Positions 22,711 to 27,801 of a stretch of DNA of 64,000 bases are shown one piece after another. The notes beneath the pieces were generated by a model that was given only the letters and a program-made list of their open reading frames with translations, was not told the DNA's origin and searched no databases. The DNA lies in the NCBI GenBank assembly GCA_018333535.1, contig JAGXTA010000003.1:1-64000 (forward strand), in the 5' to 3' direction. Position numbers and translations under genes: made by a program. Position 1 is the stretch's first letter. Every line of letters begins with the position of its first letter. The stretch is from Deltaproteobacteria bacterium. Its GTDB lineage: Bacteria > Desulfobacterota > BSN033 > UBA1163.

Positions 22711-23238
22711 ATGAAGATTTTCTTCCTTATCATTCTTTTTATTTTTATTTCAACTCCTGGATACGCCCAGGTTTATAAATGGGTGGACGATAAAGGGGTG
22801 GTCCATTTTACTGATGATGTGACCAAAATCCCTGATAAATATAGGCCTAAAACTGATAAGATTGGAATGTCCGAAGAAAAAAGCGAAACAAAAACAGGGA
22901 CAGATCCATCTCCGAAAAGAAAGGAAGACGCCTATAAAGACCAGCTGGGCAGGGGCGAGGAATACTGGAAGAACAGGGTCGAGGAATGGAAAAAGAAAAT
23001 GAGAATGGCTCAGGAAAAAATGGAAGGGGCAAGGATAACATATAATGAATTGACAGAAAAGTTTAATGATTCAAAGAGTTCGGCAGAGAGAAACCATCTC
23101 AGGAGAGAAAGAGATCAGGTCAAACAAGAGATGGATCAGTATAAAAAACAACTTGAAGAAGCCAAGACCATGCTTGAAAAGAAGATACCCGAAGAAGCAG
23201 ATATCTATAAAGCGAAGCAGGAATGGATCAAGCAGTGA
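22711..23238 (+). CDS. exported DUF4124 protein with coiled coil
   Basis: A 175-residue protein. Residues 1-19 form a signal peptide (MKIFFLIILFIFISTPGYA), followed by a DUF4124 domain (QVYKWVDDKGVVHFTDDVTKIPDKY) and a long charged coiled coil to the C-terminus. DUF4124 proteins are periplasmic or envelope-associated in proteobacteria with no settled role. There is no Shine-Dalgarno sequence; the start is fixed by the signal peptide. A strong sigma-54 promoter lies directly upstream, so expression should depend on an enhancer-binding protein. It stands between the VWA and PilZ sets. Confidence 0.85.
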   Translation: MKIFFLIILFIFISTPGYAQVYKWVDDKGVVHFTDDVTKIPDKYRPKTDKIGMSEEKSETKTGTDPSPKRKEDAYKDQLGRGEEYWKNRVEEWKKKMRMAQEKMEGARITYNELTEKFNDSKSSAERNHLRRERDQVKQEMDQYKKQLEEAKTMLEKKIPEEADIYKAKQEWIKQ

Positions 23239-23509: not shown

Positions 23510-23896
23510 ATGAATAACCAAACGACAACAGAAAGAAAGATGGGCATACTTGCCGTTGAAAAGAGGCGGTATCCAAGATATACCGCCGAATTTCCCATGG
23601 ACTATGCACGGATCGATGACAAGGGGACTTATGGCGGAATGGTAGCCAATGTGAGCGAAGGAGGGTTATTGGTCTACCTACCCCAACGGATGGAGATGGG
23701 ATCTGTCTTAAAAATCGAAATCCTTTATGTCCAGGGTTTGGAATTTAACACGATCAAGGCTGTTGCCAAAATCGTTTGGTCTGACCTGACGGCAAAAGAG
23801 AGCTACGGAGAGTATCGGTATGGTCTGCAATTTCTCCATATCGAAGAGAAGGAATTCGACAGATTGATCAATCTGCTAAAGGAGATCGGTAAATGA
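23510..23896 (+). CDS. PilZ domain protein 1
   Basis: A 128-residue single-domain PilZ protein. The c-di-GMP binding elements are both present: RRYPR (an RxxxR motif, about residues 19-23) and NVSEGG (the D/NxSxxG motif, about 46-51). Such small proteins act as c-di-GMP receptors for motility, pili or exopolysaccharide. There is no clear Shine-Dalgarno before ATG 23510; an internal ATG at 23540 would still keep the whole domain. Sigma-54-like sites lie upstream. Two paralogs follow downstream on the same strand. Confidence 0.92.
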   Translation: MNNQTTTERKMGILAVEKRRYPRYTAEFPMDYARIDDKGTYGGMVANVSEGGLLVYLPQRMEMGSVLKIEILYVQGLEFNTIKAVAKIVWSDLTAKESYGEYRYGLQFLHIEEKEFDRLINLLKEIGK

Positions 23897-24116
23897 AAAG
23901 ATGATCCCTGGATCATGAACAGTCCCGACCCATCCTGCTTGCCATTCCACGTTGTTTCAAACCCCTCTCTTAAAAAATTAAAAAAACCTCTTGAACTTTT
24001 TAAAAAAATTAATAAGAATAGAGTAGGTTTATGGATAGCAGAGGTGGGGAGAACGCCTATCCTTTTTTACGAGAAATCGAACCCTAATATAACAGGACAC
24101 TAATACAAAAGGAATA

Positions 24117-26021
24117 ATGGTTCAATCTCATATGAAAGACGAAACGTATCGAGTCATCCTTCATCGAATCGGGGAAAATACCGAAGAGGAGAAGGCCCGT
24201 TTTTGCGAGGAGGTCTCAGAAAATCATGGGATCCCTCTCGACCTGATGAGAAAAATCGCTGATCGCTGTCCCATTGTCATTAAAAAAGACCTCCCATTTA
24301 AAAAGGCTGAAATGTTGGCGATTGCCTTTAAATCATCCGGGGCCTCTGTCTCAGTGGAAAGAAAACGGGATTTGCCACCTATTTCCCTCGAGCTCATCAC
24401 TGGAGGAACCTATCGTTTGGGATTGGAGTCGACCAGCCTCCGAAAGTCTCCCGGGGGAGCATGGCAGGTTTTCGGAAGGATTAAAAATATCTCTACCGAA
24501 GAACTCCGTGATGTCTGGACTCTGATTCAACTTTTTGACGAATATGAAGAGTTGGTCACCTTCGAAGAGATCCCTCTTCCCATCAATCCACTTCCTCCCA
24601 ATGAATCTTCTCCGTTAAAGGCTATTTTTGAAGGGGACCTTCCTTTGCAGAAAGTTTCCATCGCTTTTAAGAACGCAGCAGGGAATCCGCTTCCGGCTAT
24701 GGATAAGAGACAGAAGAAAGAATGGGTGGAGGTGAAAATTTCTGAGATCGGGGTAAGAAGTCGACCCCCTTCTTTGGTTGAAATATCTGAAGAGGTTCTT
24801 CACACCTTTGAGCTTCAACCCCCTCTTGTTCCCGAAGAGGGCGAAGAGAAGCCGGAAAGAGAAGGGGCTCTGATCGAAATCACACTGCCTGAAACGGAGG
24901 AAATCCCTTTAACGTCAAAAGAAAAAATAAAAAGCTCCGGAGAGGAGTTGGCTCTGGTTTTCTTTGAAAAAGACAGACAGCCATTAGAGGAGGAGAAAGA
25001 AAAAGAAGACGAGAGATTTCAAACGGTGGTCGGAGAGGATCGCTTACGGGAAGTGATTCATACTCTTAGGACCGAGGAAAGCTCTGAAGAAGAGCTTTAT
25101 CTCGATGATCTTGCCGAAGATCGAATGGAGGATTTCCGCCAGATTGAATCAAGCCTCTCCTCATTTGAAATAGAAGAACCTGTCGCAGAAGAAAAAGCGG
25201 CAACCGTTGAAATAAAAACGGAGGAGGAAACATCTCTTTATCCCTGGTTGGAAGACTTCAAAAAAGGGATTGAGGCCTATGATCAAACGAATCGGAACCC
25301 CTTCTTAATCTGGTTTGAAAATCTCCAGGAGGAAAAGCAATGGGGGGGCGTCTACCCGTCTCTCTTAACCCTATTGATTTACGCCCGCTTCAATCAAACT
25401 CCTTCCTCGGATACAGCGCTCGAAAATACTCAGAAGGTGTACCATCTGACCATCCAAGCGGACCAGTCCTACGAGGAATTCCCTCCCCTGAAAGGGGATC
25501 TCTTCTTTCCGTCAGATGTTTGGAGAGACCTATACATCAGGGCCATTCCTAAACTTCAGGAAGTGTCCCGTCGGATGATGGAGGGAAAGAATTGGGTCAC
25601 ATCCGATCTGGATCGACTCATTCGCGTCATCCCTCACATGACTGCACGGAATAGCCGTTGGGCCATTCGTGCCATCCATCACTGGATCCCAGGGATCATC
25701 CCTGATGTTTCAGATATGCCCATTGATATCACTGAAGGTCTCTACCGGGTGGCTTCCCGATTAGGCGTGATCAATCCCTTATTCGATTATTATCAGGGGA
25801 AAAATTCAACGGGTGATCTGAGACTTCAATCCTTTGCAAGAGTTGCCTTTCCTGAGGATCCGGGAAAAATTGAGGAGCCGATGAGCCGATTAGGAGCAAC
25901 AGACGAAGGAGGGCATTGTTTGCCAACCCAACCTCAATGCCAGGACTGCCCCTTCGAGAGCTTCTGCCAAAAACGTTTTATCGATTTTGACCCGGCGGAA
26001 AAAGGGATGATTCTTCAATAA
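24117..26021 (+). CDS. fusion: L7/L12-like domain, FxLYD-like domain, acidic linker, degenerate endonuclease III-like FeS domain
   Basis: A 634-residue cytosolic protein with a combination I do not know from any described family. Residues 10-82 look like a ribosomal L7/L12 C-terminal fold (YRVILHRIGEN through LPFKKAEMLAIAFKSSGASV). Residues 95-195 resemble FxLYD (GRIKNISTEELRDVWTLIQL). Residues 215-375 are a Glu-rich linker. Residues 385-634 resemble endonuclease III: C601, C608, C611 and C617 keep the exact CX6CX2CX5C [4Fe-4S] spacing, and D537 sits where the catalytic Asp lies. The helix-hairpin-helix LPGxGxKTA is replaced by IPHMTARNSRWA, so the lyase lysine is missing. AAGGA precedes ATG 24117. 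It lies among three pilZ genes. Confidence 0.75.
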   Translation: MVQSHMKDETYRVILHRIGENTEEEKARFCEEVSENHGIPLDLMRKIADRCPIVIKKDLPFKKAEMLAIAFKSSGASVSVERKRDLPPISLELITGGTYRLGLESTSLRKSPGGAWQVFGRIKNISTEELRDVWTLIQLFDEYEELVTFEEIPLPINPLPPNESSPLKAIFEGDLPLQKVSIAFKNAAGNPLPAMDKRQKKEWVEVKISEIGVRSRPPSLVEISEEVLHTFELQPPLVPEEGEEKPEREGALIEITLPETEEIPLTSKEKIKSSGEELALVFFEKDRQPLEEEKEKEDERFQTVVGEDRLREVIHTLRTEESSEEELYLDDLAEDRMEDFRQIESSLSSFEIEEPVAEEKAATVEIKTEEETSLYPWLEDFKKGIEAYDQTNRNPFLIWFENLQEEKQWGGVYPSLLTLLIYARFNQTPSSDTALENTQKVYHLTIQADQSYEEFPPLKGDLFFPSDVWRDLYIRAIPKLQEVSRRMMEGKNWVTSDLDRLIRVIPHMTARNSRWAIRAIHHWIPGIIPDVSDMPIDITEGLYRVASRLGVINPLFDYYQGKNSTGDLRLQSFARVAFPEDPGKIEEPMSRLGATDEGGHCLPTQPQCQDCPFESFCQKRFIDFDPAEKGMILQ

Positions 26022-26044: not shown

Positions 26045-26434
26045 ATGGAGAAGTTGAAATCGATGAATGACAGAAGAAAATCCCAGAGAATGATACTGGA
26101 CTTGCCCCTTGAATACCGCGTGATGGATGCGACTTATGGCCACGGAGGATTAGTGGTCAATGCAAGTGAACTGGGACTCCTTGTTCAATCTATAAAAAAC
26201 CTCCCCATTGGGACAAAATTAAATATAGCGGTCTTATTCCCCAAGGGATTTGAATTGGCCAACTTCGAAGTTCTGGCAGAGATCATCTGGAAGGACCTCC
26301 ATTGGGAAGAGGATTGGGAGGGATATAAGTACGGGTTAAGATTCCTGCAGATTCTCGATAACGAGTATTGGAAATTAAAACAGCTATTAGACGACCAATT
26401 TCATTTGGAGGAGGTCCAGCGAAATTATCGATAG
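26045..26434 (+). CDS. PilZ domain protein 2
   Basis: A 129-residue PilZ protein. RRKSQR gives RxxxR near residues 11-15 and NASELG gives NxSxxG near 38-43. The basic and glycine positions needed for c-di-GMP are kept, but the second motif has L where the two paralogs have G. GGAGGAACGGA precedes the ATG, and the gene begins 23 bases after the FeS-fusion gene, so the two are likely co-transcribed. Confidence 0.92.
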   Translation: MEKLKSMNDRRKSQRMILDLPLEYRVMDATYGHGGLVVNASELGLLVQSIKNLPIGTKLNIAVLFPKGFELANFEVLAEIIWKDLHWEEDWEGYKYGLRFLQILDNEYWKLKQLLDDQFHLEEVQRNYR

Positions 26435-26447
26435 GGACAGGGGGGGG

Positions 26448-26834
26448 ATGACAGAGAAAAAGAATGGAAAACCTCGCATCGGAATTGCCAATATTGAAAG
26501 AAGGAAGTACCCGCGCTTTTCAATCGACCTGCCGATAGAATACCATTCAATCAGCTCTCCCGTCAGCCATGCCGGCCGGGCGCTCAATGCGAGCGAAGGA
26601 GGATTGCTGGTGTACCTTCCGGAAAAGATGACCGTCGGCCAACACCTTGCCCTGAAGCTCTTCTTCCACTGCGGCGCTCAAATGAATATCATCGAGATGA
26701 CAGGAGAAGTCATCTGGATGGATATCCACCTGGACATGAACTGGGGGGATTATCGAACGGGCTTGAAGCTGATTGATATCTCTCCCGAAAATGTTCAACG
26801 ACTGAAAGACTTCCTGCTATCCCTTACAAAGTAA
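26448..26834 (+). CDS. PilZ domain protein 3
   Basis: A 128-residue PilZ protein, closest to PilZ protein 1: both share a NASEGG or NVSEGG followed by LLVYLP and an internal GDYR or GEYR step. RRKYPR (RxxxR) and NASEGG are intact. It starts 13 bases after PilZ 2 behind a G-rich ribosome binding site. The series of three points to duplication and divergence around the fusion gene at 24117. Confidence 0.92.
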   Translation: MTEKKNGKPRIGIANIERRKYPRFSIDLPIEYHSISSPVSHAGRALNASEGGLLVYLPEKMTVGQHLALKLFFHCGAQMNIIEMTGEVIWMDIHLDMNWGDYRTGLKLIDISPENVQRLKDFLLSLTK

Positions 26835-27459: not shown

Positions 27460-27801
27460 CTACATATTTTCGTCCGGGAATTCCCTGGTAAAAGAAAATT
27501 TTAAAGGATTGAGCATAAGCATTTTTGCTGAATCTTTTACTGCATTTGCAGGCTTATCTCCTTTTCGCGAGAAAATATCAACCGTAAGGGTAAAAGGAAG
27601 TGAAACGGAAAAAAGCCCCAATCCCACAACCGCTGCAGCAACCCCTAAGGGTCTTGCAACTATTAAATCAATCGTATTCCATTCGTCTGTAAATGGATCA
27701 TCCTTTTTCCATTTATCCGAGGCCAATGCATTCGGATAAATACTTCCCATTATCATTGCGGAAATCAAAAGCATTGAAAAGGCTTTTTTATATCTCTTCA
27801 T
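27460..27801 (-). CDS. small exported membrane protein
   Basis: A 113-residue protein. The N-terminus MKRYKKAFSMLLISAMIMGS followed by IYPNALAS is a cleavable signal peptide. A hydrophobic segment near residues 52-74 (GVAAAVVGLGLFSVSLPFTL) would span or insert into a membrane. The remainder is polar and ends near the stop with FTREFPDENM. AAAGGAGG precedes the ATG and a near-perfect promoter lies upstream, so it is well expressed. No named family is recognised with certainty. Confidence 0.75.
   Translation of the reverse strand: MKRYKKAFSMLLISAMIMGSIYPNALASDKWKKDDPFTDEWNTIDLIVARPLGVAAAVVGLGLFSVSLPFTLTVDIFSRKGDKPANAVKDSAKMLMLNPLKFSFTREFPDENM

Follow-up and report, generated by a model that had tools for sequence, protein, structure and literature searches.

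A degenerate endonuclease III/MutY-like domain with a conserved, putatively iron-sulfur-binding loop is encoded among PilZ genes and may serve c-di-GMP signaling

What might a protein that contains the remains of an iron-sulfur DNA repair fold be doing among genes for PilZ proteins? The question is raised by a gene in a 64,000-nucleotide stretch of deltaproteobacterial DNA (hereafter the window), for which a preliminary description had proposed a fusion of an L7/L12-like, an FxLYD-like and a degenerate endonuclease III (EndoIII)-like domain. The 634-residue open reading frame is real, with AAAGGA placed just before its ATG (Table 1), and its combination of domains matched nothing in any library searched. 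By itself, the protein gave no significant match in Pfam or NCBIfam. No paper combining PilZ and FxLYD was found in the literature, and related themes likewise yielded no report of such a combination. Since the protein lacks a signal peptide, we presume it to be cytoplasmic. The preliminary description was largely right in what it observed, the catalytic aspartate excepted, and its interpretation is supported in part: a dead Fe-S repair fold and a link to c-di-GMP stand, and a nucleic-acid sensor is unlikely.

Table 1. Coordinates of the target gene, its domains and motifs, and its neighbors in the window.
Feature	Position	Strand	Basis
Target gene, 634-residue L12-like/FxLYD-like/linker/degenerate EndoIII-MutY Fe-S protein	24117..26021	+	ORF
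AAAGGA, likely ribosome-binding site, 3 nt before the ATG of the target gene	24108..24113	+	read directly
L7/L12 C-terminal-like domain, residues 7-83, basic	24135..24365	+	profile comparisons
FxLYD-like domain, residues 88-205, without a preceding signal peptide	24378..24731	+	profile comparisons
Acidic, poorly conserved linker, residues 206-373	24732..25235	+	ortholog alignment, charge, dN/dS
Degenerate HhH-GPD-like C-terminal domain, residues 374-634	25236..26018	+	hhalign, PDB profile search, residue comparison
R544-V-A-S-R548 arginine pair, equivalent to EndoIII R143/R147 and MUTYH R241/R245	25746..25760	+	invariant in 12/12
Cluster loop C601-X6-C608-X2-C611-X5-C617, with invariant P606	25917..25967	+	invariant in 12/12
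Exported DUF4124 protein, constant neighbor in all three families	22711..23238	+	
PilZ1, single PilZ domain with c-di-GMP-binding motifs	23510..23896	+	
PilZ2, 23 nt downstream of the target gene, c-di-GMP-binding motifs	26045..26434	+	
PilZ3, 13 nt downstream of PilZ2, c-di-GMP-binding motifs	26448..26834	+	

Twelve intact orthologs, the target included, extend the protein beyond a single genome. All of them belong to one GTDB family and share the same gene order, and their overall identity to the target protein ranges from 42 to 74%. Simple Nei-Gojobori counts give dN/dS values of 0.10-0.21 for the L12-like domain, 0.12-0.16 for the FxLYD-like domain and 0.15-0.28 for the C-terminal domain, as opposed to 0.31-0.59 for the linker (about 0.10-0.30 for the folded domains). 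Among the orthologs, this linker measures ~88-183 residues and carries a net charge of -18 to -47. Low values in the domains and higher ones in the linker argue for three folded units on a loose linker, maintained under purifying selection. Decayed remnants of the gene lie at L039:6800-7620 and L033:3800-4330 (genomes G004 and G016); in G004 the start of the target is joined to broken PilZ2 sequence, and in G016 the third cysteine of the loop is lost. From G011 the gene is absent. Decay and absence within the family suggest that the protein is useful but dispensable, and since PilZ1, PilZ3 and DUF4124 remain in these three genomes, the PilZ proteins do not need the target. The genomes surveyed in this family are mostly draft or metagenome; in G007 a contig end interrupts the locus, and the DUF4124-PilZ block was not found in G001.

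The N-terminal domain resembles the C-terminal domain of ribosomal protein L7/L12, as had been proposed. The best PDB match of a profile built from the 12 proteins (A1) is the L7/L12 C-terminal domain 1ctf (E 0.028), and single orthologs reach E-values down to 2.9e-4 against Pfam L12. The target's own domain scores below the PF00542 cut-off; paralogous domains recovered from the same genomes by the A1 profile pass it. A comparison with true bL12 by hhalign, whose E-values here refer throughout to single comparisons and not to database searches, gives E 4.1e-5 over 70 columns, and 1.2e-5 with sequences of a second family (f2, introduced below) added. Judged by eye from the alignment, the invariant residues of the domain look like core positions. 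L12-like segments also occur in other architectures of these bacteria. One type (L068:5283-6422; G000:C90) combines the L12-like domain with a zinc-ribbon-like segment of two CxxC motifs and a Yip1 membrane domain; it is common to many related genomes and in several lies a few kb from mutY. In another protein, at L035:5815-7575 in G018, the N-terminal L12-like segment is followed by a membrane domain of the RDD type and by a pilin-like domain of type II secretion protein G.

The second domain can be called FxLYD-like by way of one intermediate only. Against the NCBIfam FxLYD model (NF038353) the orthologs themselves stay below the cut-off, with E-values of 0.0084-0.2. Columns 95-195 of the A1 profile match a lipoprotein in L106, from elsewhere in the phylum, at E 4.9e-14, and this lipoprotein passes the NCBIfam model (33.2 vs a cut-off of 23).

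The position of the gene among three PilZ genes had suggested a connection to c-di-GMP, and the genomic link is indeed strong. PilZ1, PilZ2 and PilZ3 all keep the RxxxR and [DN]xSxxG motifs, and they are three of the PilZ genes of this genome, which number about six (five from a genome search, plus PilZ2, which was known separately). Every intact copy of the target is flanked by PilZ genes on both sides, and the gene order is common to all. Where contigs extend far enough, the fuller order reads GXGXG protein, VWA-like protein, DUF4124, PilZ1, target and one or two PilZ genes, and continues with a small exported protein on the other strand, HNH, HIT, LapA-like, RimP and NusA. At positions 27460-27801 of the window (minus strand) lies the gene of a 113-residue exported or membrane protein, which has no Pfam match and is kept in nearly all orthologous loci.

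Beyond the orthologs, the DUF4124-PilZ block recurs in a total of three families. In f2, a protein with the same L12-like and FxLYD-like front and a different C-terminus adjoins DUF4124 among PilZ genes; this C-terminus has no GPD match, and homology to the C-terminal domain of the target family (f1) is undetectable. Dxs-TlyA-YicC-Gmk genes, identified by the beginnings of their proteins, are close to the f2 locus as they are to the one in the window, which indicates that the two loci are homologous. Four f2 proteins (L036:5320-7131, L037:3808-5640, L038:7066-8868 and L034:2024-3826) have a C-terminus that ends LGADYCQDGNCEHC and contains a hairpin-like motif. The cysteines of this ending are missing from a relative in G044 (L112/L113), which is fused to DUF7669. 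In the third family, f3, the counterparts (L147:4544-6766 and L148:1965-4319) lie between DUF4124 and PilZ and consist of a zinc ribbon, an L12-like segment, a likely membrane helix and DUF3352. Their L12-like segment was assigned by hhalign (E 5e-5) with a score of 29.8 against a shuffled maximum of 18.4, so that none of 100 shuffles reached it. A REC-like GGDEF gene is found upstream of the f3 counterpart in L147. The constant element of the DUF4124-PilZ locus in the three families is the L12-like domain, and its C-terminal partners change. The three families inherited the locus from a common ancestor and so document one long conservation, not three independent co-locations.

The same descent leaves room for the view that the target sits among PilZ genes as a mere neighbor, for instance by partnering some cytoplasmic protein that has nothing to do with c-di-GMP. 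The vertically inherited synteny block also carries plain housekeeping genes, and loss of the target leaves the PilZ genes in place. Against this, DUF4124 and PilZ persist while other neighbors change between families, the density of PilZ genes in G020 is extreme (7 of 21 within about 13 kb around the f2 gene, on a 2.07-Mb contig), and a GGDEF protein is encoded in the same gene run of G018. We therefore consider simple neighborhood unlikely.

The C-terminal domain, which we have seen only in the window's GTDB family among 395 genomes of the phylum, had been described as derived from a repair enzyme. The derivation holds strongly for one half of the domain and is suggestive for the other. Aligned by hhalign to a set of 31 proteins (E. 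coli Nth and 30 EndoIII/MutY-type sequences from these and related genomes), the domain matches over 197 co-linear columns (E 9.1e-6, again as a single comparison; hhalign probability 83%). Most of this signal stems from the cysteine loop, and the match without the loop is weak: its score of 22.4, vs 15.0 +/- 2.8 for column-shuffled profiles, is reached by 2 of 100 shuffles, and its aligned length of 162 exceeds every shuffle (maximum 103). In the PDB, MutY and EndoIII chains make up nearly all of the 20 listed matches of the C-terminal profile, all of them weak (E 0.25-1). The best of the curated profiles, TIGR01084, gives E 0.0059 and 16.2 bits against a cut-off of 286.5; PF10576 scores 10.9 against 20.5, and a search with PF00730 did not return the target. 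AlphaFold models of the full-length protein and of the C-terminal domain, built from three-sequence input, are of low confidence (pLDDT 48.8), and a Foldseek search with this low-confidence model found nothing (best E 1.3). Homology to the Fe-S HhH-GPD enzymes is thus well supported by sequence for the cluster half (~538-621), and the evidence for residues 374-535 remains suggestive. That the target is a functional repair paralog was considered and rejected, as EndoIII and MutY are already encoded in this genome, which also has a third HhH-GPD protein.

Which residues of the ancestral fold have been kept? The CX6CX2CX5C arrangement noted in the preliminary description (C601, C608, C611 and C617) is present and invariant in all 12 orthologs. 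A chance pattern was rejected, since the spacing is unique among the reading frames checked (no other instance in 114,538 residues of all-frame ORFs from 19 loci) and is kept throughout. In human MUTYH, the cluster is linked to the catalytic Asp236 via Cys290, Arg241 and Asn238, and variants of the cluster cysteines, R245 or P295 lose the metal (PMC12000561). Seven equivalents of the MUTYH cluster-retention residues are invariant in the 12 orthologs: the four cysteines, R544 (R241), R548 (R245) and P606 (P295). By analogy with MutY and EndoIII, we infer that the four cysteines hold a [4Fe-4S] cluster. Zinc in place of the cluster appears highly improbable: it would find some backing in a weak, non-significant match to the Pfam zinc-finger family PF25429 (E 0.08, in 2 of 12 sequences), and is contradicted by the exact EndoIII/MutY spacing, by the invariant R/R/P positions and by the PDB matches described above. 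We accordingly rejected a zinc finger.

The residues that would use the cluster have fared differently. Counted from the invariant R544 (= EndoIII R143), D537, which had been put forward as the catalytic aspartate, is out of register and variable (D,D,D,E,E,E,D,L,I,V,A,I in the 12 sequences). The position of EndoIII D138 and MUTYH Asp236 is T539, which varies across the orthologs (S,G,T,N,Q,R,E), whereas 24 of 24 EndoIII-type and 7 of 7 MutY comparison sequences have Asp there. A gapped hhalign path could place D530 (kept in 11/12) at this position, with eight residues inserted. The equivalent of MUTYH N238, G541, is lost or variable. That the helix-hairpin-helix lacks its GxG core and lysine is borne out: the hairpin glycine positions hold H/Q at 507 (H507) and T/G/D at 509 (T509), and the equivalent of EndoIII K120, R511, is R/Q/P/S across the orthologs, neither Glu nor Lys. 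In all 12 orthologs the domain is acidic (net charge -1 to -9, pI 5.2-6.7), compared with +3 to +45 and pI 8.7-10.4 for 30 true EndoIII/MutY-type proteins of these and related genomes, and pI 8.4 for E. coli Nth. With the cluster residues invariant, the catalytic and hairpin residues gone and the domain acidic, it seems that the cluster was kept while catalysis and DNA binding were lost.

Loss of the aspartate alone would be no proof of inactivity, since Sis-HhH-GPD of Saccharolobus islandicus, with Ser at the catalytic Asp, is active via a hairpin Glu (PMC11754123). This precedent, together with the near-invariant D530, the hairpin-like motif in the C-terminus of the f2 relatives and their middle region, which by eye is DUF7669-like, could be taken to mean that the target is a sensor that binds nucleic acid, or else an unusual glycosylase whose catalytic residues are new. 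We find this very unlikely in view of the residues at the K120 position, the lost hairpin glycines, the acidity of the domain in 12/12 and the EndoIII, MutY and third HhH-GPD protein that the genome already encodes. The DNA or RNA structure sensor of the preliminary description is disfavored on two of these grounds, the missing hairpin glycines and the acidity of the domain in every one of the 12 orthologs, as opposed to the 30 basic true enzymes. The other idea offered there, a redox-sensitive scaffold, is compatible with the results.

Our preferred reading, which we put forward tentatively, is that the target works without enzymatic activity, as a cytoplasmic [4Fe-4S] adaptor within a c-di-GMP effector module. 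Its four cysteines would hold the cluster as in MutY and EndoIII, and at least one c-di-GMP-bound PilZ protein would dock on the N-terminal L12-like domain; the constancy of this domain at the locus leads us to infer that it is the part working with the PilZ proteins. The flexible acidic linker might then let the Fe-S domain act on a protein partner, or report the redox, oxygen or NO state to it. DNA would not be a ligand.

The cluster could also be purely structural, the target being a scaffold in the PilZ/DUF4124 module that senses no redox state and whose loop holds the C-terminal domain together. For the DNA glycosylases, the part ascribed to the cluster loop in DNA binding is a structural one (PMC11754123), and in the target the cluster-holding residues are conserved with nothing else pointing to redox chemistry. 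Yet a costly cluster kept after the loss of DNA binding and catalysis might point to some further use, and we regard a purely structural cluster as slightly less likely than our preferred reading. Going beyond the adaptor reading, we speculate that an Fe-S domain of the EndoIII/MutY type, having lost DNA binding and catalysis, was recruited as the redox, oxygen or NO input of c-di-GMP signaling, with the L12-like domain docking PilZ and C-terminal outputs being exchanged across the bacterial class; this broader proposal is a distinctly long shot. If the cluster reading is true, this would be a conserved example of an Fe-S repair fold in which the cluster-holding residues, and just these, were retained and the cluster-using ones lost; it would thus inform the question of the cluster's purpose. 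The protein is also a candidate partner for single-domain PilZ receptors, a class with few known targets, and offers a candidate new role for an L7/L12-like domain.

Altogether, the protein resembles several known systems and coincides with none. With EndoIII and MutY it has in common the CX6CX2CX5C loop, the arginine pair and the proline for cluster retention; it differs in the missing catalytic Asp/Lys, hairpin GxG and basic charge, in an insertion before the GPD helix and in its place behind two fused domains. Sis-HhH-GPD is likewise an HhH-GPD protein with four cysteines and a replaced catalytic aspartate, but it keeps a hairpin Glu, which the target family lacks, and acts on DNA (PMC11754123). 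The likeness to the bL12 C-terminal domain consists of a domain-length profile similarity and of a beta-alpha-alpha-beta-alpha-beta order, predicted in a low-confidence model. Unlike bL12, the target has neither an N-terminal dimerization domain nor a hinge, its L12-like domain beginning at residue 7, and it is not ribosomal, the genome's own bL12 being G000:C88. FxLYD proteins (NF038353) are related to it by a profile match via the intermediate; in the target, however, the domain lies mid-protein, without signal peptide and presumably in the cytoplasm, and its own score is below the family cut-off. As for the single-domain PilZ receptors, the target itself lacks a PilZ domain, and what connects it to them is the adjacency of their genes, in which the binding motifs are kept.
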